A stretch of DNA of 64,000 bases, taken from assembly GCF_030733385.1 (NCBI RefSeq), contig NZ_JASHJC010000008.1:1-64000 (forward strand), read 5' to 3'. Numbering within the stretch: the stretch's first letter is position 1; the number at the start of each line of letters is the position of its first letter. This DNA comes from Roseovarius sp. MMSF_3359. GTDB taxonomy: Bacteria; Pseudomonadota; Alphaproteobacteria; Rhodobacterales; Rhodobacteraceae. The translations under genes were made by a program, and so were the position numbers. This document shows positions 6,231 to 61,369 of this stretch, piece by piece. Under the pieces are notes generated by a model. The model was given only the letters and a program-made list of their open reading frames with translations. It was not told the DNA's origin and did no database searches.

Positions 6231-7172
6231 ATGTTGAATTTCAAGAACTTGGGCGCCCTGGCGATTGCCGCCGCGACCGCATCCGCCGGGTGGGCCGCAG
6301 ATTCGTCCGATCCGATCAAGCTGACCCTGCATGACTGGTCCGGGCAGCTTATCAACACCAAGATCATGGGCTCGATCCTCGAAGAAGCCGGGTATAACGT
6401 CGAGTACGTTCAGGCCGACTACATCGCGCAGTTTGCCGGGCTCAAGACCGGTGATCTTCACCTTGCCATGGAGATCTGGGAAACCACGGGCCGCGGTGCG
6501 CTGGACGAGGCCGTGGCCACCGGCAATGTCGTCAATGTGGGCGAGACCGGCCTGATGGCGATCGAGGAGTGGTGGTATCCGCTCTACATGAAGGAACGGT
6601 GCCCCGGCCTGCCCAACTGGGAAGCCCTCAAGGATTGCGCCGAGGAATTCGCTACTGCCGAAACCGACCCGAACGGGCGCTATGTCGGCGGCCCGGTAAC
6701 CTGGGGCGGGTTCGATGACGAGCGTGTCGAGGCGTTGGAGCTTGATTTCGAAGTGGTGCATGCGGGCACCGATGCGGCGCTTTTTGCCGAACTCGAATCC
6801 GCCTATCAGCGGCAGGATCCGGTGATCCTCTGGGTCTATGTCCCGCACTGGGCGCCAGCGAAGTACGAAGGCGAATTCGTTGAATTCCCAGCCTACACAC
6901 CCGAATGCTACGAAGATCCCGCCTGGGGCATCAACCCGAATATGGCCTATGATTGCGGCAAGCCGCGCGGCCCGATCTGGAAAGCGGCGTGGTCCGGGCT
7001 TCAGGAAAACTGGCCCGGTGCCTATCCCATCATCGAGGCCTACAAGCTCACCAATGAAGAGATGAGCGCGATGGTCGGCAAGGCCGATCTCGACGGGGTG
7101 GACGTTGACACTGTGGTCGCCGACTGGATGGCCAAGAACAAGGATCGCTGGTCCGGCTGGATCGGTCAGTAA
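6231..7172 (+). CDS. Glycine betaine/proline-type ABC transporter substrate-binding protein (OpuAC family)
   Basis: Binding protein of the OpuAC family, 313 residues from the ATG at 6231. That start is chosen because GGGGAGA lies seven bases upstream and a signal peptide follows (LGALAIAAATASAGWAA, cleavage near residue 22); the open frame to 6147 has no such support. The mature domain is rich in Trp and Tyr (LHDWSGQ, AMEIWETT, IEEWWYPLYM, ILWVYVPHW), as in the aromatic cages that hold trimethylammonium groups. It captures the substrate for the permease and ATPase encoded next. Ligand identity is not readable; a quaternary amine is expected from family and from the downstream demethylase-like enzyme. 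Confidence 0.9.
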   Translation: MLNFKNLGALAIAAATASAGWAADSSDPIKLTLHDWSGQLINTKIMGSILEEAGYNVEYVQADYIAQFAGLKTGDLHLAMEIWETTGRGALDEAVATGNVVNVGETGLMAIEEWWYPLYMKERCPGLPNWEALKDCAEEFATAETDPNGRYVGGPVTWGGFDDERVEALELDFEVVHAGTDAALFAELESAYQRQDPVILWVYVPHWAPAKYEGEFVEFPAYTPECYEDPAWGINPNMAYDCGKPRGPIWKAAWSGLQENWPGAYPIIEAYKLTNEEMSAMVGKADLDGVDVDTVVADWMAKNKDRWSGWIGQ

Positions 7173-7217: not shown

Positions 7218-7271
7218 CCAACAGGTTTGCTATCCTTCTGCCGTGCCAACGGTCAGAATCGGGGTGTCTTG

Positions 7272-8294
7272 ATGAACGCGAATATCAAGCTGTCATGCCG
7301 CAGCGTCTGGAAGCTCTACGGCAACGAAACCGACAGCTTCCTGCAACAGAACCCGGACCCGTCGGATGACGATATCCGCGATGCCGGGATCATCGGAGCG
7401 GTGCGCAACGCGAGCCTCGACATCGCCGAGGGCGAGATTTTCGTCATCATGGGGCTTTCGGGCTCGGGCAAGTCAACGCTCGTGCGGTGCCTGTCGCGCC
7501 TGATCGAACCCACGGGCGGCGAGGTGTTGTTCGATGGCGCCGATCTTCTGCGCGCCAGCGACGCCGAAATGATCGAGATTCGCCGTCACAAGCTCGGGAT
7601 GGTGTTCCAGCATTTCGCCCTCCTGCCCCACCTGAGCGTTTTGCAGAACGTGATGTTCCCCCTGACCGTGCAGGCCGTGCCGAAACCGCAGGCCGAGGCC
7701 AAGGCGCGCGAGGTGGTCGAGCTTGTGGGCCTCAAGGGGCGCGAGGATTATTACCCGCGCGAACTCAGCGGCGGGCAGCAGCAGCGCGTGGGGATCGCCC
7801 GGTCGCTCGTGACCGAACCCGACCTGTGGTTCCTCGACGAGCCGTTTTCGGCGCTCGATCCGCTGATCCGCCGCGAGATGCAGGATGAATTCCTGAGCCT
7901 GCAGGCGCGCCTGCACAAGACCATCGTTTTCATCACCCATGATTTCGACGAGGCGGTGCGCCTGGCCGACCGGATCGCGATCATGAAGGACGGCAAGATC
8001 ATCCAGGTCGCCACGCCCGAGGAGTTGGTGGTCAACCCGGCCTCGGATTATGTCGAGGAATTCACCCGCCACATCCCGCGTGACAAGGTGCTGACCGCGG
8101 GCGGGCTGATGACGCGCGGCGCAACTGCCGAAGGCACGCCGGTCCCGACCAATGCGCGGATTTCGGACGTGGCCGAACGGATCATCATGGCCGACGGCCC
8201 CGTGCCCGTGGCCGACCGGTCCGGCGAGATTGTCGGCACAATTGACCGCAAGGCCATCGCCCATGTCCTCTTTGGCGCGGGGGGCGGTGCATGA
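7272..8294 (+). CDS. Glycine betaine-type ABC transporter ATP-binding protein (ProV/OpuAA-like)
   Basis: ATPase subunit of the quaternary-amine importer, 340 residues from 7272 (GGGGTG just upstream; the frame is open to 7227). It has Walker A GLSGSGKST at about 61-69, the Q-loop in GMVFQHFALLPH, the signature LSGGQQQRVGIARSL, Walker B LWFLDEPFSALDP and the switch histidine in FITHDFDEA. A C-terminal extension after about residue 275 resembles the CBS-type osmosensing tail of ProV but is short. The insertion NETDSFLQQNPDPSDDDI near the N-terminus is typical of OpuAA/ProV. The stop overlaps the permease start (ATGA). Confidence 0.93.
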   Translation: MNANIKLSCRSVWKLYGNETDSFLQQNPDPSDDDIRDAGIIGAVRNASLDIAEGEIFVIMGLSGSGKSTLVRCLSRLIEPTGGEVLFDGADLLRASDAEMIEIRRHKLGMVFQHFALLPHLSVLQNVMFPLTVQAVPKPQAEAKAREVVELVGLKGREDYYPRELSGGQQQRVGIARSLVTEPDLWFLDEPFSALDPLIRREMQDEFLSLQARLHKTIVFITHDFDEAVRLADRIAIMKDGKIIQVATPEELVVNPASDYVEEFTRHIPRDKVLTAGGLMTRGATAEGTPVPTNARISDVAERIIMADGPVPVADRSGEIVGTIDRKAIAHVLFGAGGGA

Positions 8295-10288
8295 CCCGAC
8301 GGCTTAGCCCTGCCCTCGTGATCACGCTGAGCCTGGTCGTCATCACGATCATCCTCGGCACCTACGGGCGCGATCTTTCGAAGGCGCTTGATGCGCGCTG
8401 GCTGGTCAAATTCCCTTCCGCCTGGATCATCCCGTTCAAAACCTACATCTCGGCGGCTATGAAATGGCTCGTGGAAGAGGCGGCCATCGGCCCGCTTTCC
8501 TTCACCGATGTCACGCGCTCCATCGCCTGGCTGATCGAACAACCTTACCGTTTCGTGCTCTCTCTCCTAGGGGATGGCTTTACCACCGGTCAGGGCAACG
8601 CTGAGACCGTGATCCTGCCGCCGATAAGCTGGGTCGTGGTCACCGCAGCGGTCGTGGCGCTCGGGCATTACTGCCGCGACTGGATGCTGGCGGCGCTGGT
8701 TGGCGCCTGCTTCCTCTACCTCGCGATCTTCGGCCAGTGGGACAGCGCGATGGTCACCCTCGCCTCGGTCCTGATCGCCGTGCCGATCGGCGCGGGCGGC
8801 GGGCTTCTGATGGGCATCTGGGCCTATCGCCACCCGCGGGGCGAACGGTTCTTGATGCCGGTCCTCGACCTGATGCAGACGATCCCGATCTTTGCCTATC
8901 TCGTCCCGATCCTCTTCATGTTCGGCTTCGGCCCGGTCTCGGCCCTCGTGGCGACGATCATCTATGCCACCCCGCCAATGGTCCGCGTCACGATCCTCGC
9001 GCTCAAATCCGTCGATCCGGAACTGGTCGATTTCGGCCGCATGGCGGGGACCACACCACGGCAACTGATGTGGCGCGTGTTGGTCCCTTCGGCCTCCCAC
9101 AGCCTGATGGTGGGCGTTAATCAGGTCATCATGCTCACCCTCAACATGGTCATCATCGCATCGATGATCGGCGCGGGCGGGCTGGGATTCGACGTGCTGG
9201 CCGCGCTCAGGCGTCTTGATATCGGCGCGGGGTTCGAGGCCGGGATCGCCATCGTCGTGCTGGCCATCGCGGTTGACCGGCTGAGCCAGGCTTTCGCCGA
9301 ACGCATGGGGCAGATCCATCATGCACCCGAACACCAGTCGTGGATCGCCCGCCACAAACGCACCGCCATCGTTCTGGCGCTCCTCGCAATCACTTGGGCC
9401 TTTGGCCGGTTTGCCCCCGCGATCATGGCCTACCCAGAGGCGCAGACGATTACGACCGGCGCGTTCTGGGACGATACGGTCAAATACCTCAACGTGAACT
9501 TTTTCGACACGTTCGAGGCGATCAAGGTCTTCTTCCTCACCTATTTCCTTCTCCCCATCAAACGCACACTTCTGGGCATTCCCTGGCCCTGGACCATCGC
9601 CATGCTCATGCTTCTGGGCTGGCGCGCGGGCGGCTGGCGACTGGCGGTGCTCTGCGGCGGGCTGTCGGGCCTCATCGCCATCACCGGGCTTTGGTCCAAG
9701 GCGATGGTCACGGTCTATCTCTGCGGCGCGTCGGTCATCATCGCCACGCTGATCGGCGTTCCCCTGGGCGTTCTCGCCGCGCTCAACAAACGTGCGGGCG
9801 TGGTCATCAATGTGCTGATCGACACGCTGCAAACCTTGCCCAGTTTCGTCTACCTGATCCCTGTGGTGATGCTTTTCCGCGTGGGGGATTTCACCGCAAT
9901 GATCGCCATTGTGCTTTATGCCCTCGCCCCCGCCGTGCGCTATGCCGCCCACGGGGTGCGCAACGTGAGCCATGACCTGATCGAAGCGGGGATCGTGTCG
10001 GGCTGCACACCGCGGCAACTCCTGCGCCTGGTGCGCCTGCCGCTGGCCCTGCCCGAGATCCTGCTGGGCATCAACCAGACGATCATGCTGGCGCTGTCGA
10101 TGCTGGTCATCACCGCGCTCGTCGGCACCCGCGATCTGGGCCAAGAGGTCTATATCGCGCTGACCAAGGCCGACACGGGCCGCGGCATCGTCGCCGGTCT
10201 TGCCATCGCCTTCATCGCCATCATCGCCGACCGGCTGGTCAATGCCGGGGCAAGCGGCGCCCGCAAACGCTTTGGATTGGAGAGCTGA
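8291..10288 (+). CDS. Fused double-permease subunit of the betaine-type ABC transporter
   Basis: A 665-residue inner-membrane protein carrying two ABC-permease domains in one chain, where ProW/OpuAB normally has one. Each half has its own EAA-type coupling loop: DFGRMAGTTPRQLMWRVLVP near residue 250 and EAGIVSGCTPRQLLRLVRLP near residue 570. The two halves are similar in plan but divergent in sequence, so the transporter could assemble as a pseudo-dimer from one polypeptide with two ATPase subunits. Multiple hydrophobic segments are evident in each half. Start overlaps the ATPase stop by four bases; the kinase gene begins four bases after the stop. Confidence 0.9.
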   Translation: MTRRLSPALVITLSLVVITIILGTYGRDLSKALDARWLVKFPSAWIIPFKTYISAAMKWLVEEAAIGPLSFTDVTRSIAWLIEQPYRFVLSLLGDGFTTGQGNAETVILPPISWVVVTAAVVALGHYCRDWMLAALVGACFLYLAIFGQWDSAMVTLASVLIAVPIGAGGGLLMGIWAYRHPRGERFLMPVLDLMQTIPIFAYLVPILFMFGFGPVSALVATIIYATPPMVRVTILALKSVDPELVDFGRMAGTTPRQLMWRVLVPSASHSLMVGVNQVIMLTLNMVIIASMIGAGGLGFDVLAALRRLDIGAGFEAGIAIVVLAIAVDRLSQAFAERMGQIHHAPEHQSWIARHKRTAIVLALLAITWAFGRFAPAIMAYPEAQTITTGAFWDDTVKYLNVNFFDTFEAIKVFFLTYFLLPIKRTLLGIPWPWTIAMLMLLGWRAGGWRLAVLCGGLSGLIAITGLWSKAMVTVYLCGASVIIATLIGVPLGVLAALNKRAGVVINVLIDTLQTLPSFVYLIPVVMLFRVGDFTAMIAIVLYALAPAVRYAAHGVRNVSHDLIEAGIVSGCTPRQLLRLVRLPLALPEILLGINQTIMLALSMLVITALVGTRDLGQEVYIALTKADTGRGIVAGLAIAFIAIIADRLVNAGASGARKRFGLES

Positions 10289-10291
10289 GCC

Positions 10292-11161
10292 ATGAGCCAA
10301 CCCGATTTCCGCACCCTCCCCCTCTGGCAGGGAGAAATCACCGCGACGCCACTGACCGGCGGGATCACGAATGTGAACTACCTCGTCGAGGATGGAGCGC
10401 AGAAATACGTTGTCCGCGTGGGCGACGACATTCCGCTGCATCAGGTGATGCGGTTCAACGAGTTGGCCGCCAGCCGCGCGGCCCATGCCGCCGGATTGTC
10501 GCCCGCCGTGGTCCATGCCGAACCGGGCCTCACGGTGCTTGATTACATCGACAGCAAAACGTTGACCGAAGCGGATGTGCGCGCGCCCGAGATGCTGCCC
10601 CGCGCGCTTGACCTGGTAAAACGCTGCCACCGCGAGGTGCCCAAACACCTGCGCGGGCCAAGCCTCGTCTTCTGGGTTTTTCACGTGATCCGCGATTATG
10701 GCGCAACGCTGACGGATCGGGGCAGCAGCCAAACCGCGCTGATCCCCGAACTGATCGATATTGCTGGTCAGCTCGAAGAGGCGGCAGGCCCCTATGACAT
10801 CGTCTTCGGCCACAACGACCTGCTCTGCGGCAATTTCCTCGACGATGGTGACCGGCTCTGGCTGATCGATTTCGACTATGCCGGGTTCAACTCGCCACTC
10901 TTCGATCTGGGCGGGCTTGCATCGAATAACGGGCTGAGCGAGGCGCAGGAAGAGTGGATGCTTGAGACCTATTTCGAAGCACCGGTCACCGACGATCTGC
11001 GTCGCCGTTATTCGGCGATGAAATGCGCCTCGCTCCTGCGCGAGACGATGTGGAGCATGGTGTCGGAAATCACGTCGGAAATCGACTTTGACTACGGCGC
11101 CTACACCGCTGAAAACCTTGCACGATTCCGTGCAAGCCTTGAAACATTCAACCAAAGCTGA
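10292..11161 (+). CDS. Phosphotransferase, choline/ethanolamine kinase-like
   Basis: A 289-residue member of the APH/choline-kinase superfamily. The catalytic Brenner motif is H174-N-D176...N181 (FGHNDLLCGNF), followed by the metal-binding LIDFDYAG (D193, D195). The N-lobe has LTGGITNVNYLV (nucleotide-binding loop) and VVRVG for the lysine/arginine strand. It probably phosphorylates an alcohol-bearing amine that enters through the transporter encoded directly upstream; choline, a methylated ethanolamine or an analogue are candidates. The partner flavoprotein gene starts nine bases downstream. A DeoR-type regulator at the head of the operon is consistent with a phosphorylated inducer. The substrate is not established. 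Confidence 0.85.
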   Translation: MSQPDFRTLPLWQGEITATPLTGGITNVNYLVEDGAQKYVVRVGDDIPLHQVMRFNELAASRAAHAAGLSPAVVHAEPGLTVLDYIDSKTLTEADVRAPEMLPRALDLVKRCHREVPKHLRGPSLVFWVFHVIRDYGATLTDRGSSQTALIPELIDIAGQLEEAAGPYDIVFGHNDLLCGNFLDDGDRLWLIDFDYAGFNSPLFDLGGLASNNGLSEAQEEWMLETYFEAPVTDDLRRRYSAMKCASLLRETMWSMVSEITSEIDFDYGAYTAENLARFRASLETFNQS

Positions 11162-11170
11162 GGCACCGAC

Positions 11171-13615
11171 ATGGCTGATCTCCCCTCCACCGCCAAGGCC
11201 GTCATCATCGGGGGTGGCATCATCGGATGTTCCACCGCCTATCACTTGGCCAAACTGGGCTGGACCGACACCGTCCTTCTGGAGCGCAAGAAGCTGACCT
11301 CCGGCACCACGTTCCACGCGGCGGGGCTTGTGGGGCAATTGCGGTCCAACGCAAACATCACGCAGCTTCTGGGCTATTCCGTCGATCTCTACACCAAGCT
11401 CGAGGAGGAAACCGGCCTTGGCACCGGCTGGAAGATGAACGGGGGGCTGCGGCTGGCGTGTAACGAGGAACGCTGGACCGAGGTCAAGCGGCAGGCCACC
11501 ACGGCGCATTCCTTCGGGCTTGAAATGGAGCTGCTGACGCCCGCGGAGGCGCTGAAGCTTTGGCCGCTCATGGATATCTCTGATCTTGTCGGCGCGGCCT
11601 TCATGCCCACCGATGGGCAGGCCAACCCGTCTGATATCACGCAAGCATTGGCAAAAGGCGCACGGATGGCCGGCGCCACGATCCTTGAGGACACGAAGGT
11701 GACCGATCTGGAGGTCGAAAACGGCCGTATCCGCGCGGTCATCACCGATCAGGGGCGGATTGAGTGCGAAAAGGTGATCGTCTGCGCCGGGCAATGGACC
11801 CGCGATTTCGCCGCTAAATTCGGCGTCAACGTGCCGCTGGTGTCGATGGAGCACCAATATATGCTGACCGAGCCGATGGGCGTGCCCTCGAACCTGCCGA
11901 CGCTGCGTGATCCTGACCGGCTTTGTTACTACAAGGAAGAGGTCGGCGGGCTGGTCATGGGCGGGTATGAACCGAACCCGATCCCCTGGGCCGTGGACGG
12001 CATTCCGGAAGGGTTCCACTACACCCTGCTCGACAGCAATTACGACCATTTCGAGCAGATCATGGAGAAATCCCTGGGCCGCGTCCCCGCGCTTGAAACC
12101 GCCGGGATCAAGACGCTCACCAACGGGCCCGAAAGTTTCACGCCGGACGGTAATTTCATCATCGGCGAGGCGCCGGAACTCAGGAATTTCTATGTCGGCG
12201 CCGGGTTCAATGCCTTTGGTATCGCCTCGGGCGGCGGTGCGGGCATGGCGCTTGCCGAGTGGGCGCATAAGGGCGAGCCGCCATTTGATCTCTGGTCCGC
12301 CGATATCCGCCGCTTTGGCCGACCGCATTTCGATACCGACTGGGTCCGCACCCGCACGGTCGAGGCCTATGGCAAGCACTACACGATGGCCTGGCCGCAT
12401 GAGGAACATGATAGCGGCCGCCCCTGCCGCAAGTCGCCGCTCTATGACACGCTGGCCGAACAAGGCGCTTGCTTTGGCGAAAAGCTGGGCTGGGAGCGGC
12501 CCAACTGGTTTGCCGACGTGGCGGCTGGCGAGGCACCCAAGGATATCTACAGCTTTGGCCGCCAGAACTGGTTTGCCGCCAACGCCCGCGAACACCGCGC
12601 CGCGCGTGAGGCCGCGATCGTGATCGACCAGACGTCTTTTGCCAAATTTATACTCAAAGGCCCCGATGCGCAGGCGGCGCTGAACTGGATCGCAGCGGGC
12701 AATGTGAACAAGCCCGTGGGCGCGCTGACCTATACCCAGATGCTCAACGACAAGGGCGGGATCGAATGTGACCTGACCATCGCGCGGGTGGCGGAGGAGG
12801 AGTTTTACATCGTCACCGGTACCGGTTTCGCCACCCATGATTTCAACTGGATCAGCCGGAATATCCCCGAGGAGATGAATTGCCAGCTTTTCGATGTGAC
12901 CTCATCTAATGCTGTCCTATCCCTGATGGGGCCCGAGGCGCGCAATATCCTGCAAAAGGTCACCCGCGCGGATGTCTCGGACGCGGGGTTCAAATTCGGC
13001 ACGGTGCAGACCATCGGCATCGCCGGATGCCCGGTGCAGGCGCTCAGGATCACCTATGTGGGCGAATTGGGGTGGGAGCTGCACCTGCCCGTCGAATACG
13101 CGCAGACGGTCTATGCCGCGCTGATGCGGGCCGGAGCGGATCACGGGTTGCTCAACGCGGGCTACCGGACAATTGAATCGCTTAGGCTCGAGAAGGGATA
13201 CCGCGCCTGGGGCTCGGATATCGGGCCGGATCACACGCCGTTCGAGGCCGGTCTTGGCTGGGCCACGAAACTACGCAGCAACACGGATTTCAAAGGCCGC
13301 GCCGCGACCGAAGCGCAACGCGCGGACGGGGTGCAAAAGATGCTGGCGACCTTCACGGTCGATCCGGATGTGGTCCTGCTGGGCCGCGAGACGATCTATC
13401 GCGATGGCGAGCGGGTCGGTTGGCTGACCTCAGGCGGGTTTGGCCACACGGTCGGCAAATCCATTGGGTTGGGGTATGTGCGGAACCCCGATGGCGTAGA
13501 CGCAGACTTCGTGATGTCGGGGAATTACGAGCTCGAAGTCGCGACCGAGCGCTTCCCCGCGCAGGTCCATCTGCAGCCGCTCTATGACCCGGAGATGACC
13601 CGCGTGAAGGCCTGA
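11171..13615 (+). CDS. GcvT-type FAD-dependent oxidoreductase (dimethylglycine/sarcosine dehydrogenase-like)
   Basis: An 814-residue two-part flavoenzyme. Residues about 10-380 are a DAO-type FAD domain with the dinucleotide motif IGGGIIGCSTAYHLAKLG (about 13-30) and SGTTFHAAGL, whose His49 matches the covalent FAD attachment site of dimethylglycine and sarcosine dehydrogenases. About 430-800 are aminomethyltransferase (GcvT) domains that usually pass the oxidised methyl group to tetrahydrofolate, with GELGWELHLPVEY characteristic of GcvT. It should oxidatively demethylate an N-methylated amine. Its position last in a transporter-kinase operon suggests it acts on the imported compound or a product of it. 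Confidence 0.9.
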   Translation: MADLPSTAKAVIIGGGIIGCSTAYHLAKLGWTDTVLLERKKLTSGTTFHAAGLVGQLRSNANITQLLGYSVDLYTKLEEETGLGTGWKMNGGLRLACNEERWTEVKRQATTAHSFGLEMELLTPAEALKLWPLMDISDLVGAAFMPTDGQANPSDITQALAKGARMAGATILEDTKVTDLEVENGRIRAVITDQGRIECEKVIVCAGQWTRDFAAKFGVNVPLVSMEHQYMLTEPMGVPSNLPTLRDPDRLCYYKEEVGGLVMGGYEPNPIPWAVDGIPEGFHYTLLDSNYDHFEQIMEKSLGRVPALETAGIKTLTNGPESFTPDGNFIIGEAPELRNFYVGAGFNAFGIASGGGAGMALAEWAHKGEPPFDLWSADIRRFGRPHFDTDWVRTRTVEAYGKHYTMAWPHEEHDSGRPCRKSPLYDTLAEQGACFGEKLGWERPNWFADVAAGEAPKDIYSFGRQNWFAANAREHRAAREAAIVIDQTSFAKFILKGPDAQAALNWIAAGNVNKPVGALTYTQMLNDKGGIECDLTIARVAEEEFYIVTGTGFATHDFNWISRNIPEEMNCQLFDVTSSNAVLSLMGPEARNILQKVTRADVSDAGFKFGTVQTIGIAGCPVQALRITYVGELGWELHLPVEYAQTVYAALMRAGADHGLLNAGYRTIESLRLEKGYRAWGSDIGPDHTPFEAGLGWATKLRSNTDFKGRAATEAQRADGVQKMLATFTVDPDVVLLGRETIYRDGERVGWLTSGGFGHTVGKSIGLGYVRNPDGVDADFVMSGNYELEVATERFPAQVHLQPLYDPEMTRVKA

Positions 13616-32987: not shown

Positions 32988-33083
32988 AGGCGCGCGACAT
33001 CAGACCGACGCGCCCCGAGGAGGACGTCGGAGACGGACGACGAGATATCCGGCGTGCGCGGCACGCGCACTCAATCTGACAAC
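32988..33083 (-). repeat. Dispersed repeat, copy 2, with 17-base palindromic core
   Basis: Begins directly after the Lrp stop and fills the whole gap to the convergent LysR gene; its right end codes for the last residues of that LysR protein (RLSD and stop). The 46 bases 33038-33083 match copy 1 (27268-27313) with one difference. The palindromic core GTGCGCGGCACGCGCAC is at 33054-33070. As in copy 1, it lies at the 3' end of a minus-strand LysR-family gene. Confidence 0.75.
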
Positions 33084-33964
33084 CTCTGCCTTTCGCACCA
33101 ATCCAGCAGCCAGTCGCGAAACACCCGAGCCGGCGGGCGGAGCGCCGCGCGGTCGGGATAGACCAGGTGATACGCCTCGCGCCCCCATACCGACACGCCG
33201 GGCAGACATGGAACAAGCCCCGCCTCCCGCATCGCCTTGTCGCTGGCAGGCGCCCGCGCCAGGGCGATCCCGGCCCCCTCAGAAGCCAGCGCCATCGCCA
33301 TCATCGTGCTGTCGGCATAGAAGTACCGCGCCTGGCCCGGCAAAATCCCGAGACTGTCGAACACATGCGGCCACCCGGCGCGATGCGTCGCCACCTCGAT
33401 CAACCGGTGCCGCATCAGATCGGCGGGGCCGTCAATCCCCGCCACGACCTCCGGCAATGCCACGGGATAGAGTTTCTCGCCCAGAAGCTTGTCGCCTTCC
33501 GCACCATAAGCCTGCGGGCTGCCAAAGATGATCTGCAGATCCGTAAACCCCCGGGCGAACTCGAAAGGCAGGTTGGCGGTGGTCAGGGTCATGTTGATGT
33601 CCGGGTGGGCAGAGGTGAAATCCTCATATCCCCGCGACAGCAGCCCTTGCGCGAAAATCAGGACCGATTGCACGAAAAGCTGTTGCGCCCGAGCCGCCCC
33701 AAAAAGCCCCTCGGTCGCATTCTCCAGCGTGAGAAGCGCCTGCTGCACCGACGGCAGATACGCCCGCCCCACCGCCGTCAGGCTGACCGCATGGGCGTGA
33801 CGGTCGAAAAGCGCCACGCCCAACCGCTCTTCAAGCGCCCTGACCTGCTGCGACACGGCGGCAGGTGACATGTTGAGCTGCACCGCCGCCCGCGCGAAAC
33901 TCTCGCATCGGGCGGCAGCTTCGAACACACGTAACCAGTTGAGCGAGGGAAGATTGACCGACAT
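33071..33964 (-). CDS. LysR-family transcriptional regulator (GcvA-like)
   Basis: A 297-residue LysR-type regulator of the GcvA subgroup: the HTH is in residues about 6-65 (NWLRVFEAAARCESFARAA, SPAAVSQQVRALEERLG), followed by a two-lobed ligand-binding domain. It is divergent from the PhyH/HD/sterol-desaturase operon and is the obvious candidate regulator. A perfect palindrome with a T-N11-A core lies five bases upstream of its start. In the dispersed-repeat copy 2 the stop codon and last residues are inside the repeat, so the C-terminus may have been changed by the repeat. Confidence 0.9.
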   Translation of the reverse strand: MSVNLPSLNWLRVFEAAARCESFARAAVQLNMSPAAVSQQVRALEERLGVALFDRHAHAVSLTAVGRAYLPSVQQALLTLENATEGLFGAARAQQLFVQSVLIFAQGLLSRGYEDFTSAHPDINMTLTTANLPFEFARGFTDLQIIFGSPQAYGAEGDKLLGEKLYPVALPEVVAGIDGPADLMRHRLIEVATHRAGWPHVFDSLGILPGQARYFYADSTMMAMALASEGAGIALARAPASDKAMREAGLVPCLPGVSVWGREAYHLVYPDRAALRPPARVFRDWLLDWCERQRLSD

Positions 33965-33969
33965 GCCGC

Positions 33970-33992
33970 AAGGCTAAGCTCAACTTAGCCTT
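33970..33992. promoter_or_regulatory. Perfect 9-bp palindrome with T-N11-A core, candidate LysR operator
   Basis: AAGGCTAAG (33970-33978) and CTTAGCCTT (33984-33992) are exact reverse complements around CTCAA. Inside it, T at 33975 and A at 33987 form the T-N11-A pattern of LysR binding sites. It lies between the divergent LysR gene (start 33964) and the PhyH gene (start 34070), about 80 bases upstream of the latter, a normal activator position. Confidence 0.65.
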
Positions 33993-34069: not shown

Positions 34070-34978
34070 GTGCCGAAACCTCAATCTCTCATCGACGGTC
34101 GCTTGTCCGAGGGCGAGATCAGCCAATATTGGCGCGACGGATACCTCTTTCCCCTGGACGTTTTTGGCTCGGATGAGGCCCAATCATACCGCTCCGAGTT
34201 GGAAGAGATCGAGCGCGACTGGCGCGAGGCCGACCTGCCGCATCCGCTCAACATGTACAAGCGCACCAATGCCCATTGCGTGCTCCCCCTGGCGGCGCGG
34301 ATGGCCAGCGACCCGCGCGTGCTGGACGCGGTCGAGGGTATCCTTGGCCCCGACCTGATGATCTGGTCGGCGGAGTTTTTCATCAAGGAACCGCGCACCA
34401 CCCATGTGGTCGGCATGCATCAGGACCTCACCTATTGGGGCCTGGGAGAGACCTCGGACCAAGTCACCGCCTGGATTGCCCTTTCACCGGCCACGGTGGA
34501 AAGCGGCTGCATGGATTTCGTCCGGGGCAGCCACAAGAACCCGATCCTGCCCCACAACGACACATTCTCGGAAAACAATCTGCTCTCACGCGGACAGGAG
34601 ATTGCCGTGGACGTGGCCGACGAAGACAAGACCCATATCGAGTTGCAACCGGGACAGATGTCGCTGCATCACGGGCTGACGATCCACGGCTCGGGTCCCA
34701 ACCGCTCGGACGACCGGCGCGTGGGCTTTGCCATCCGCTACCTCAATCCGAACGCACAGCAACAGGTCGCCAAGCGCGATTTCGCGATGCTGGCCCGCGG
34801 CGCCGACCTGCAGGGCAACTTCATTCACTATGCCGCACCGACCGGAAATTTCGCGCCGCATTCCCTGACGCTCTACGATCAAATCCTCGCCGCCCAAAGG
34901 GACGCCCTTTCAGAAGGGGTTGACAGCGGCGCGCTCTTTAGCGGCCATAGGAACATGCAGAAACAAGGGATCGCTTAA
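34070..34978 (+). CDS. PhyH-family Fe(II)/2-oxoglutarate dioxygenase (PhnY/TmpA-like)
   Basis: A 302-residue phytanoyl-CoA dioxygenase-family enzyme from GTG 34070 (AAGGAG eight bases upstream). The iron facial triad is visible: H117 and D119 in GMHQDLTYWG, and the distal His in LTIHGSGPNRSDDRR (about H206), with an Arg ten residues on for 2-oxoglutarate. The next gene encodes an HD-domain protein of the type that completes phosphonate cleavage in PhnY/PhnZ and TmpA/TmpB. In those pairs the PhyH enzyme hydroxylates the carbon next to phosphorus. Substrate here is unknown; a 2-aminoethylphosphonate derivative is a working guess. It is the first gene of a three-gene operon. Confidence 0.88.
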   Translation: MPKPQSLIDGRLSEGEISQYWRDGYLFPLDVFGSDEAQSYRSELEEIERDWREADLPHPLNMYKRTNAHCVLPLAARMASDPRVLDAVEGILGPDLMIWSAEFFIKEPRTTHVVGMHQDLTYWGLGETSDQVTAWIALSPATVESGCMDFVRGSHKNPILPHNDTFSENNLLSRGQEIAVDVADEDKTHIELQPGQMSLHHGLTIHGSGPNRSDDRRVGFAIRYLNPNAQQQVAKRDFAMLARGADLQGNFIHYAAPTGNFAPHSLTLYDQILAAQRDALSEGVDSGALFSGHRNMQKQGIA

Positions 34979-35596
34979 ATGGACAAAGTCAGCTTTACCC
35001 AGATGAAAGACGGCACCAAGGAAGAGTATGAATTCCTCACCGCCCATGAGATCGACCATACCAAACACACCGCGCAAAGGTTGCTGAAGGCGCTTGTGGA
35101 TCTGGACGAAAGCCTTTCGGGCTACCAGATCACCCGCCTGGGCCACTCCGTGCAATCGGCAACACGGGCCTGGCGCGATGGGGCGGACACCGATTGGGTC
35201 GTCGGCGCGCTTCTGCACGATATCGGCGATATCTATGCGCCCTACAACCACGACGAATATGCCGCGACGATCCTCAAACCCTTCGTGCGGGAGCAGGTCA
35301 CCTGGTGCGTGCAAACCCATGGCGATTTCCAAATGCTCTATTACGGCCATCACCTTGACGGCGCGGACCAGCACAAGCGCGACCGCCACAAGGACAACCC
35401 CTATTTCGACGATTGCGCCGAATTCTGCGAACGGTGGGACCAGGCGAGTTTCGACCCGGATTACGATGACCTGCCGCTCGACTTCTTCGCACCCATGGTC
35501 GAAGAAGTCTTTGCCCGGGAGCCCTACAGCGCCGATGTGATACAGCCCGGGATGCGCAAGCCACTCACCGACAAAACGGTTGCCGCCAGCCGGTAA
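34979..35596 (+). CDS. HD-domain protein, PhnZ/TmpB/MIOX-like diiron oxygenase candidate
   Basis: A 205-residue HD-domain protein starting one base after the PhyH stop. The metal ligands follow the PhnZ plan: H56 (ITRLGHSVQSA), H80-D81 (ALLHDIGDIYAPYNH), H91, H114 (CVQTHGDFQ) and D154 (ERWDQASFD); H56-H80 spacing of 24 equals PhnZ H34-H58. By hand alignment Tyr49 falls where PhnZ has its substrate-binding Glu27, and the Tyr24 position holds Leu46, so substrate recognition probably differs. PhnZ and TmpB are mixed-valent diiron oxygenases that split hydroxyphosphonates to phosphate and a carboxylate. Annotation as a phosphohydrolase would be misleading. Confidence 0.82.
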   Translation: MDKVSFTQMKDGTKEEYEFLTAHEIDHTKHTAQRLLKALVDLDESLSGYQITRLGHSVQSATRAWRDGADTDWVVGALLHDIGDIYAPYNHDEYAATILKPFVREQVTWCVQTHGDFQMLYYGHHLDGADQHKRDRHKDNPYFDDCAEFCERWDQASFDPDYDDLPLDFFAPMVEEVFAREPYSADVIQPGMRKPLTDKTVAASR

Positions 35597-35623
35597 CGCA
35601 CTGACCAGACAGGGATTTTTGAC

Positions 35624-36640
35624 ATGGAGCCGTCCGTGAACACTCGAGTTGTGCCTGAACGCAAGGGGCGCAAGACCTGGAATTACACGCCCGATCTGCC
35701 TCTTCGGCTCGCCCCCTATTGGGACTGGCCGCTTAGGCCACTGGCCTCGGTCAGGTACCTCCTGCGCAGTTGGAACCCGGTGGCGCAGCGGTTTCTCTTT
35801 CTGCTCGCGGCAATCGCCGTGTGGACCTGGTTCACGCCCGATCTTGACCGGGCGCGCACGCTCAGCCTCGATTGGATTTTCGATATCTGGCTGCGCAACC
35901 TCGTGATCCTGCTCGTGGTGGCGGGCGGGCTGCACCTGGCGCTCTGGAAGTACCGAACCCAGGCCGACGAGTACCGCTATGACATGCGACCGATGGTCAA
36001 GGGTGCAAAGATCTTCACCTTCAAGAACCAGGTCTGGGACAACATGTTCTGGACGCTTGGCCCGGCGCTTGCCTTCGCGACCTTCTGGGAGGCCCTGATG
36101 TGGTACGCCTATGCCAACGGTTGGGCCAGTATGATCACGCTCACGTCCAACCCGGTCTGGTTCGTGCTCCTGATCGTGCTCATCCCGATCTGGGCCGGGT
36201 TTCATTTCTACTGGCTGCACCGGCTCCTGCATGTCGGCCCGCTTTACACCCGTATTCACGCCTGGCATCACCGCAACATCAACACCGGGCCCTGGTCCGG
36301 GCTTGCCATGCACCCGGTCGAAAGCTTCTTACTGATGTTCGACACCATGATTTTCTTCCTTCTGCCCGCGCACCCCACACATGTTCTATTTTTGATATTT
36401 CATCACCTGATTGGCGCCCCGACATCGCATGCAGGGTTTGAAAACATCAAGTTTGGTAAATCCGCCAAGCTGGGCCTGGGTGACTTTTTTCACCAGCTTC
36501 ACCACAAGTTCTTCGATTGTAACTACGGCACCTGGGAGACGCCCTGGGATAAATGGTTCAACACCTTCCATGACGGCACGACCGAGGGTGACAGCCATAT
36601 CCGGGAGCGGCGCCGCAAGATCTGGTCACGGGCTGGCTAG
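35624..36640 (+). CDS. Sterol desaturase/fatty acid hydroxylase superfamily membrane protein
   Basis: A 338-residue membrane enzyme with four or more hydrophobic segments and the diiron histidine boxes: HRLLHVGP, HAWHHRNI, HHLIGAPTSHAGFE and HQLHHKFFDCNYG. The family hydroxylates or desaturates lipids and also includes alkylglycerol monooxygenase. Start is 27 bases after the HD gene with GACAGGGA upstream, so it is co-transcribed. Its pairing with a soluble PhnY/PhnZ-like pair is unusual and suggests a lipid-borne or membrane-partitioning substrate, such as a phosphonolipid; this is inference. A 9-bp hairpin follows at 36656-36690. Confidence 0.87.
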   Translation: MEPSVNTRVVPERKGRKTWNYTPDLPLRLAPYWDWPLRPLASVRYLLRSWNPVAQRFLFLLAAIAVWTWFTPDLDRARTLSLDWIFDIWLRNLVILLVVAGGLHLALWKYRTQADEYRYDMRPMVKGAKIFTFKNQVWDNMFWTLGPALAFATFWEALMWYAYANGWASMITLTSNPVWFVLLIVLIPIWAGFHFYWLHRLLHVGPLYTRIHAWHHRNINTGPWSGLAMHPVESFLLMFDTMIFFLLPAHPTHVLFLIFHHLIGAPTSHAGFENIKFGKSAKLGLGDFFHQLHHKFFDCNYGTWETPWDKWFNTFHDGTTEGDSHIRERRRKIWSRAG

Positions 36641-60376: not shown

Positions 60377-61369
60377 TTAGCTGGAAACCACCGTCCCCTT
60401 GCCCGCCTGCGCCGCCCGTTGCCGTGCGAGGGTCGCGATGGCGGTGTCCTGCACGCCGGTTCCGGTCAGGTCCGCGATGGTGATATCGCGGTCATTGGCG
60501 CGCCCGGCGGCCTTGCCCGTGACGATATCGCCAATTTCCGGGAATACGTCGTCAGGCGAAAACAACCCGGCCTCGAGCGCGGGCCGCAACTCACCCAGGA
60601 TGGCGGTTTGGGATTGCCGGTCAGGCACATAGAGCGCCGCCCGCGTCAGGCAGGCGGGGTCCAGTTCGCATTTATGCGCCTGATCCGATCCCATGGCGGT
60701 GATATGTTGCCCGTCCTCCAACCAGTCCGACATAAGCACAGGCTGAGCCGCGGGTGTGGTTGTCACCACGATATCGGCCCCCTTGACCGCCTGCGCCGCC
60801 TCGGGCTGCGCCGTTACCTCAATGCCAAGCTCGCGGCGCAACTCATCGGCGGCTTGCTCAGCCTTTGCCGCATCGCGCGCCCAGATCACTGCCCGGGTGA
60901 TGGGCCTCACCAGCGTCAGCGCCTTGAGTTGCAGGCGCGCCTGCATCCCCGCACCAATGATGCAGGCCGATGACGCCTCGGGGCGGGCCAGATGCCGGGC
61001 GGCCACAGCACCGGCGGCGGCGGTCCGAACCTCGGTCAGATAACCATTGTCGAGCAAAACCGCCTCGACCTGGCCGGTCTTGGCGGAGAAAACCACCATG
61101 ATCCCGTTCGTCGATGGCAGGCCCAGGGACGGGTTGTCGTAAAACCCCGGCGACATCTTGATCGTGAAGCTCTCCGCCCCGGCGATATGGGCGGTTTTGA
61201 CATCGACCTCGCCATTGCTCTCGGCGATGGCCATCGACATGATCGGCGGCATCGCGACATTGCCCGCGGACAGGGCCGCAAAGCCCTGCTCGACGCAATC
61301 GACAACCGCCACGTCCAGGGGCACCAGCGCCCGCAAATCCGCTTCGGTCAGAATGTTGATGTCCGGCAT
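60377..61369 (-). CDS. Ornithine cyclodeaminase/mu-crystallin family protein
   Basis: A 330-residue NAD(P)-dependent enzyme of the OCD/mu-crystallin/alanine-dehydrogenase group. The Rossmann motif is IIGAGMQARLQLKAL near residue 138, and TAAAGAVAARHLARP precedes it. NAD-binding and the FTIKMSPGFYDNP segment are as in the family. Activities include ornithine to proline, N-methylalanine dehydrogenase-type or imine reduction. It is followed on the minus strand by nothing and preceded by a SAM methyltransferase 48 bases away, a combination that suggests metabolism of an N-methylated or cyclic amino acid. Confidence 0.85.
   Translation of the reverse strand: MPDINILTEADLRALVPLDVAVVDCVEQGFAALSAGNVAMPPIMSMAIAESNGEVDVKTAHIAGAESFTIKMSPGFYDNPSLGLPSTNGIMVVFSAKTGQVEAVLLDNGYLTEVRTAAAGAVAARHLARPEASSACIIGAGMQARLQLKALTLVRPITRAVIWARDAAKAEQAADELRRELGIEVTAQPEAAQAVKGADIVVTTTPAAQPVLMSDWLEDGQHITAMGSDQAHKCELDPACLTRAALYVPDRQSQTAILGELRPALEAGLFSPDDVFPEIGDIVTGKAAGRANDRDITIADLTGTGVQDTAIATLARQRAAQAGKGTVVSS

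Follow-up and report, generated by a model that had tools for sequence, protein, structure and literature searches.

The closest described systems to the one reported here are two-gene units in which a 2-oxoglutarate (2OG)-dependent hydroxylase is paired with an HD-domain oxygenase: TmpA/TmpB of the 2-trimethylaminoethylphosphonate pathway, PhnY/PhnZ, acting on 2-aminoethylphosphonate, and the GIM8-type PhnY/PhnZ1, acting on methylphosphonate. The HD-domain oxygenases named in the available part of a review are MIOX, PhnZ, and TmpB, and a six-ligand pattern, H...HD...H...H...D, defines the group (PMC8177086). We analyzed a stretch of 64,000 nucleotides (nt) from Roseovarius sp. MMSF_3359 (hereafter the window), in which the genes for a PhyH-family Fe(II)/2OG hydroxylase (PhyH; 34070-34978, plus strand; 302 amino acids (aa), GTG start), an HD-domain oxygenase (HD; 34979-35596, plus strand; 205 aa), and a predicted integral-membrane diiron enzyme of the FA_hydroxylase (sterol-desaturase) family (FAH; 35624-36640, plus strand; 338 aa) form a tight operon divergent from a LysR-type regulator gene. 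An earlier reading made from the sequence alone (the sequence-only reading) had described this layout, and its open reading frames (ORFs), coordinates, and families all held. The HD start codon directly adjoins the PhyH stop codon (0 nt), and 27 nt separate HD from FAH. The fold, the six ligands, and the separate clade of the HD protein, the exchange of its hydroxylase partners, and a shared operator are established here. The reading that we propose, with a probability of about 0.4 for the whole chain, is that PhyH would hydroxylate, and HD would cleave, a quaternary-ammonium (onium) substrate.

The ligands of the window HD protein (H56, H80, D81, H91, H114, and D154) are all invariant in 22 of 22 aligned rows. 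The sequence-only reading had named five of them and missed H91; because H91 is invariant alongside the others, the six-ligand pattern of the HD-domain oxygenases is complete. An AlphaFold2 model built from the alignment (predicted local distance difference test score, pLDDT, 92.7) resembled PhnZ (Z 17.2), TmpB (16.3), and MIOX (11.3) among PDB structures, with all other chains at Z 7.7 or below. Foldseek placed PhnZ (E 2.7e-6) and TmpB at about 1e-5 or better and MIOX only at E 0.44, and hhalign matched the HD profile to an alignment of 18 TmpB/PhnZ proteins with a probability of 99 and an E-value of 3.8e-18. Judged by ligands and modeled fold, the protein is very likely a mixed-valent-diiron-type oxygenase (MVDO), which would employ a diiron cofactor and O2. 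A hydrolase-type HD protein was considered as a candidate and dropped, since structures besides PhnZ, TmpB, and MIOX all fell at Z 7.7 or lower. An explanation that makes the HD protein a phosphohydrolase and leaves the pathway to the oxygenases by themselves could draw on its match to the Pfam HD domain (23.7 bits, cut-off 22) and on one relative annotated as "phosphohydrolase". However, the six ligands follow the oxygenase pattern, and fold, Foldseek, and hhalign favor PhnZ, TmpB, and MIOX over the dNTPase/phosphohydrolase-type proteins with which the sequence-only reading had allowed for a grouping, making this explanation highly improbable.

While the HD protein thus groups with PhnZ, TmpB, and MIOX, the label "PhnZ-type" given to it previously fails in the strict sense of family cut-offs, substrate loop, and clade. 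On curated phosphonate models, it scored 32.6 bits (TIGR03276, cut-off 214.6), 32.0 bits (NF049941, cut-off 300), and 23.9 bits (NF052439, cut-off 300), reaching none of the thresholds. The YxxE motif, which forms the substrate loop of PhnZ and TmpB and is absent from MIOX in the available account (PMC8177086), is missing, with L46xxY49 at the corresponding columns; within the motif, all 18 TmpB/PhnZ rows keep the tyrosine, and the glutamate is not invariant. Furthermore, the KR following the fifth ligand, invariant in the TmpB/PhnZ alignment, is QM in the HD protein (H114-GDF-QM), and the TmpB/PhnZ QGG motif is absent. The phylogenetic comparison with PhnZ, TmpB, and MIOX suggested in the sequence-only reading was carried out on 104 rows: the 12 TmpB/PhnZ rows were split off by a branch of length 4.5 with a support of 100 in the Shimodaira-Hasegawa-like approximate likelihood ratio test (SH-aLRT), with HD outside, and the two MIOX rows were likewise split off (SH-aLRT 100, branch length 5). 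It should be noted that this is a quick tree with long branches, from which sequences containing a stop codon were excluded, and that TmpB/PhnZ and MIOX join the HD rows at different places, leaving the root of the HD clade unfixed.

Some of these features would fit a MIOX-like cleavage of a ring or polyol. The window protein shares with MIOX the ligand pattern, the lack of YxxE (PMC8177086, in the part available), and an HDEY motif common to it and two MIOX proteins; it scores 23.7 bits on Pfam MIOX (PF05153), below the gathering score of 25, and one relative is annotated as "inositol oxygenase family protein". However, its fold is clearly closer to PhnZ and TmpB, it differs from MIOX in sequence clade, with the MIOX rows separate in the tree, as well as in size, and it has an operonic hydroxylase partner, which MIOX does not need according to the accessible text of the review (PMC8177086). 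No inositol genes were found among the annotated neighbors, which are a part of all neighbors. We consider this alternative very unlikely. In plasmid records, members of the clade are labeled as "HD domain-containing protein", "phosphohydrolase", "inositol oxygenase family protein", or hypothetical, and we recognized no paper describing the HD clade or the operon within our partial coverage of the literature.

Of 385 genomes sampled from the class, 111 contain the HD clade, including 2 with weak partial matches only (E 4e-11 and 5e-11), and so do 26 of 60 relatives when weaker matches are included. If our reading is true, a separate six-ligand clade of this extent widens the chemistry of HD oxygenases well beyond phosphonates, and counts of phnZ-like genes derived from HD matches need not all signify phosphonate use.

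The hydroxylase paired with HD is exchanged between genomes. In 8 genomes from five families (G083, G140, G208, G294, G298, G372, G375, and G391), a TmpA-family gene and HD lie on the same strand, separated by 36-98 nt; 0.005 pairs within 150 nt would be expected in the 52 genomes holding both genes, compared to the 8 observed at 100 nt or less. A TmpA-family gene likewise lies beside a broken HD gene in G316, while in G099 a Rieske gene is placed between the two and in G183 they are divergent. PhyH-HD pairs were also found in other families (G131, G405, and G142), a number that is a lower bound counted among the PhyH matches listed. In three further loci (L203, L204, and L215), HD is preceded by a 2OG gene of another family, which we take to be IPNS-like and which carries DIOX_N and 2OG-FeII_Oxy domains (scanned for L203). 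Since the HD proteins of L169, with a TmpA-like partner, and of L170, with a PhyH partner, are sisters (SH-aLRT 98), the hydroxylase has been swapped while the HD protein stayed. The pair of a 2OG-type hydroxylase and an HD protein recognized in the sequence-only reading is therefore real and recurs across loci, and we infer that HD likely acts after a hydroxylase.

The window PhyH protein itself is assigned to its family by a Pfam score of 111.7 bits (cut-off 22) and by the predicted HxD...H triad. H117, D119, and H206, the ligands proposed from the sequence alone (the last only approximately), are invariant in 12 of 12 aligned rows, L083 and L097 being excluded from this alignment because of a stop codon within the match. 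A function as chlorinating enzyme was dropped, since D119 is kept and the score on TIGR01762 (63) is below the cut-off of 226.

To describe the architecture of the unit, we used the best 80 HD loci among named genomes, mainly Rhodobacteraceae, five of which end near HD at a contig end. PhyH alone adjoins HD in 32 of them, PhyH together with FAH in 3, FAH alone in 9, and neither in 36; with PhyH beside HD in 35 of 80 and FAH in 12 of 80, both associations are beyond chance. The order PhyH-HD-FAH was found in the window, L043, and L060, FAH-PhyH-HD in L062, and HD-FAH in nine loci. Among genus mates, several of which are the same genomes as named loci, PhyH orthologs (at least 54% identity, 8 genomes) and close FAH orthologs (at least 79%, 2 genomes) occur only in genomes with an HD protein of at least 73% identity (17 genomes). 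From these adjacency counts and the distribution among genus mates, it follows that HD is the common core, that FAH is an accessory gene, and that the trio is rare. The sequence-only reading had taken the membrane enzyme as the mark of a variant pathway, which these numbers do not bear out; conservation of the three-gene order is likewise mostly lacking, and yet FAH shares regulator and operator with PhyH-HD, as described below. Two tandem HD-clade genes follow PhyH, SDR, and Rieske genes in L196 (3375-4750), where the PhyH frame appears split, and in L284 (5052-7353), a 12.9-kb mobilizable Sphingobium plasmid, HD is flanked by class II aldolase and alpha/beta hydrolase genes, next to an insertion element. 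Overall, 14 plasmid HD matches were obtained, of which 9 were opened (H1, H2, H3, H5, H7, H9, H10, H13, and H14; H3 without analysis). Decarboxylase and AsnC neighbors were dropped as pathway parts, as they lie beside HD in some loci only.

FAH is assigned to the FA_hydroxylase superfamily (sterol desaturases and fatty acid hydroxylases) by its PF04116 score (70.2 bits, cut-off 31), the predicted histidine motifs HRLLH (199), HAWHH (212), and HQLHH (290), and five hydrophobic stretches, of which two overlap, as putative membrane segments. In contrast to this family resemblance, no relative in PDB was found by sequence, profile, or model, the last being poor (pLDDT 65.7). The profile matched WRAP-T chains only over short stretches (best E 7e-4), which we attribute to chance. 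A query with FAH against 218 genomes of the family retrieved 9 close FAH genes, 6 of them with HD directly upstream; three of these 6 loci (L261, L264, and L265) stem from genomes that the HD query had already yielded as L066, L057, and L107. In the remaining loci, FAH is divergent from the same LysR (66% identity; L268), near a PF06253 (MTTB) gene and a FAD/GcvT protein (L267), or near genes for a choline-sulfatase (876 bits, cut-off 433) and MTTB (L269). In marine bacteria such as Ruegeria pomeroyi, a PF06253 protein is, according to the accessible part of the source, the glycine betaine-binding subunit of the demethylase (PMC12478193). Plasmids yielded 3 FAH genes at E 1e-90 or better, one 3' of HD (L286) and two in a LysR-FAH arrangement. 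A PanB-like gene of the ketopantoate hydroxymethyltransferase family, possibly handling a one-carbon unit, is located 3' of FAH in L286 (8659-9483) and L268 (7880-8719). Most likely, FAH would serve as a substitute or second hydroxylase controlled by the same regulator.

This regulator, encoded at 33071-33964 on the minus strand, starts 105 nt from PhyH and is GcvA-like (HTH_1 78.8 bits, cut-off 26.6; LysR_substrate 70.0 bits; NCBIfam PRK11139 GcvA 202.5 bits, under its cut-off of 288). Between the two genes, a candidate operator (33970-33992) consists of a perfect inverted repeat of 9+9 nt, AAGGCTAAG-N5-CTTAGCCTT. LysR homologs of 58-79% identity lie divergent from PhyH-HD or FAH units, and among 30 intergenic regions next to LysR homologs of at least 40% identity, 29 contain the core TAAG-N5-CTTA (these 30 include at least one duplicate, L123 and L062 being the same genome); all collected loci together have 50 such sites in 2.86 Mb. 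The core also occurs in the FAH-only loci L268, L292, and L293 and in the distant L274. Thus, FAH and PhyH-HD have a regulator and an operator in common. Within the genome, the window site is the sole match to the operator at up to 2 mismatches; a search for further regulon members gave three sites at 3 mismatches, fewer than the reversed-pattern control (14 per strand). Among the 45 HD loci without PhyH (36 with neither partner and 9 with FAH), none carries the exact core within 250 nt upstream of HD, so that LysR control is not universal and these loci appear to be under other control. A promoter scan of the window locus detected none, compared to a mean of 1.0 in shuffles.

Concerning the substrate, the sequence-only reading had proposed phosphonates: PhyH and HD would hydroxylate and cleave them as PhnY and PhnZ do, and FAH would extend the range to hydrophobic or lipid-linked ones. 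In favor of this, PhnZ and TmpB are the closest solved folds, relatives of the window HD protein pair with TmpA-like enzymes, and the gene after HD in L178 and L182 encodes a PstS-like protein. However, the window HD protein lacks YxxE, KR, and QGG, its family scores of 24-33 bits contrast with cut-offs of 215-300, and it lies outside the TmpB clade, while the window hydroxylase, PhyH, is not BBOX/TmpA-like. Compared to the GIM8-type PhnY/PhnZ1, PhyH scores 17.8 bits on the methylphosphonate hydroxylase model (cut-off 500) and HD 23.9 bits on PhnZ1 (cut-off 300). Furthermore, another contig of the window genome encodes a genuine TmpA (601 bits, cut-off 400) immediately followed by a genuine TmpB (356 bits, cut-off 300; L254 5591-7365, G000:C34), and the window unit is therefore additional to the TmpAB pathway. 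No phosphonate-degradation genes were seen among the annotated neighbors, with the same limit as for inositol genes, and no evidence for lipid-linked phosphonates turned up, no search having been aimed at them.

The TmpA-like partners bear on this question as well. On the TmpA model (cut-off 400), the eight described above and the L285 enzyme reach only 334-358 bits; in NCBIfam scans, TmpA outscored the BBOX and TMLD models for the enzymes of L161, L169, L182, and L285, and BBOX came out slightly ahead for the TmpA-like enzymes of L168 and L276. According to the part of the source available, TmpA binds the phosphonate through N187, N287, and R288 (PMC9296572). In the HD-linked TmpA-like enzymes, N187 is replaced by D in 9 of 9 and N287 by P, T, or S, with R or K at position 288. 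This D signature also occurs in L271 and L272 (genomes of 1.2-1.3 Mb with HD elsewhere) and in the HD-less L280, and it is absent from the enzymes of L168 (divergent from HD) and L276 (Rieske gene between). By our reading of its spacing to the cage tyrosine, this aspartate would match D231 of trimethyllysine hydroxylase, reported in the available text to help bind trimethyllysine (PMC7764450). The change of N187 to D and the loss of N287 point to an onium substrate that carries no phosphonate at its far end. Taken together with the genuine TmpAB elsewhere and the choline-, betaine-, and carnitine-type neighbors in relatives, this disfavors phosphonates: the substrate of the window unit is probably not a phosphonate, and the phosphonate explanation as a whole appears unlikely.

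These neighbors were found in relatives whose loci we opened by choice. In L285, a Pseudomonas aeruginosa plasmid, the gene order is LysR, TmpA-like enzyme, HD, ChoX (458 bits, cut-off 379), choline-dehydrogenase-like protein, and BADH-like protein, with HD and the choline/betaine genes adjacent on the same strand. In L290, a Rhizobium megaplasmid, HD is followed by a BetI-like gene on the opposite strand and by choline-dehydrogenase-like, choline-binding ChoX (467 bits), and BADH-like genes; the gene of a GbcB-like reductase lies upstream of HD. HD lies beside L-carnitine-dehydrogenase-like (344 bits, cut-off 414) and keto-acid-cleavage-like genes in L281, is the last gene of an operon with, in this order, DmdA (over cut-off), MFS, Rid-like, and TmpA-like genes in L161 and L279, and follows TmpA-like and GbcA-like Rieske genes in L276. 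A PhyH paralog (41% identity) in another part of the window genome (L255 190-12206, G000:C31) is clustered with carnitine-dehydrogenase-like, keto-acid-cleavage-like, DoeA-like, and GbcA-like Rieske genes.

We propose that PhyH would convert a small substrate to a carbinol and that HD would then act with O2, its diiron-superoxide taking the carbinol hydrogen, whereupon the bond next to the new hydroxyl would break. Such a hydrogen abstraction has been proposed for PhnZ, TmpB, and MIOX (PMC8177086 and PMC10574752, both in the parts available). The substrate would be an onium nutrient of the choline, carnitine, or betaine kind and the product glycine-betaine-like, an identity that we hold tentatively, at slightly less than even odds. 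The hydroxylation step would be interchangeable between PhyH, a TmpA-like enzyme, another 2OG enzyme, or, in relatives, possibly the membrane FA_hydroxylase, and LysR would switch the unit through its TAAG-N5-CTTA site. In its widest form, that this is a third clade of mixed-valent diiron HD oxygenases, cutting a C-C or other non-phosphonate bond of a hydroxylated onium compound and served by interchangeable hydroxylases of unrelated superfamilies including a membrane diiron one, the proposal is doubtful. If true, it could account for an unrecognized bacterial route to choline- or betaine-type nitrogen.

Several observations weigh against an onium pathway. The onium neighbors are not a controlled count, and MTTB and Rieske genes may be widespread in the genomes concerned. 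All onium links come from relatives, none from the branch of the window: linkage of HD to choline/betaine genes is seen in L285 and L290, with such genes close by in L281, and is absent from the unit of the window, and the D signature belongs to the enzymes of relatives rather than to the window PhyH. Neither PhyH nor FAH stands beside HD in 36 of the 80 closest loci, in which annotated neighbors are a minority. HD has other company as well: the PstS-like proteins mentioned above, class II aldolases (L188 and L284), an M19 peptidase and a peptide/nickel-type binding protein (L270), and AstE-like proteins (L208 and L213). Moreover, L280 (6251-8513) holds the DmdA-MFS-Rid-TmpA-like operon with the D signature and an unrelated gene of 382 aa instead of HD. 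Substrates may well differ between HD branches.

A further neighbor, an isovaleryl-CoA-dehydrogenase-like gene close to HD in L212 (E 7e-208), belongs to a sequence cluster present in 5 of 75 loci, although the L174 member of this cluster had no PDB match at E 1e-60. Its confirmation, together with the small share of annotated neighbors in the closest loci, slightly lowered our confidence in the whole chain. This gene would fit an acyl breakdown by alpha-oxidation, in which PhyH and FAH 2-hydroxylate an acyl chain or lipid and HD converts the 2-hydroxy acid by cleavage into the next shorter one. Both PhyH and FA_hydroxylase owe their family names to acyl hydroxylation, and FAH lies 3' of HD in 6 of the 9 FAH-query loci, with the operator in common. 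However, the conserved unit around the window contains no acyl-CoA gene, and the best PDB match of PhyH is 6zyk (E 2.2e-39), with phytanoyl-CoA dioxygenase 2a1x at only 1.1e-11. The closest characterized kin of the TmpA-like partners, TmpA and BBOX, have small onium compounds as substrates in the account available (PMC9296572). An acyl substrate therefore seems rather unlikely, and we retain the onium reading at the strength given above.

It is worth noting that neighboring genes were called by a codon-score caller, which misses some genes, including HD in some loci; f25 is apparently a frame of FAH. Elsewhere in the window, about 20 kb from the operon, a region that we interpret as an onium uptake cluster (7227-13615) encodes an ABC transporter of the betaine/proline/choline family, with a ProV-type ATPase (351 bits) and a choline permease (392 bits), both over cut-off, as well as kinase-like and FAD/GcvT demethylase-like proteins; the adjacent binding-protein-like ORF (6231-7172) has no NCBIfam match. 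An ectoine utilization EutC-like gene (519 bits, cut-off 472) is located at 60377-61369.

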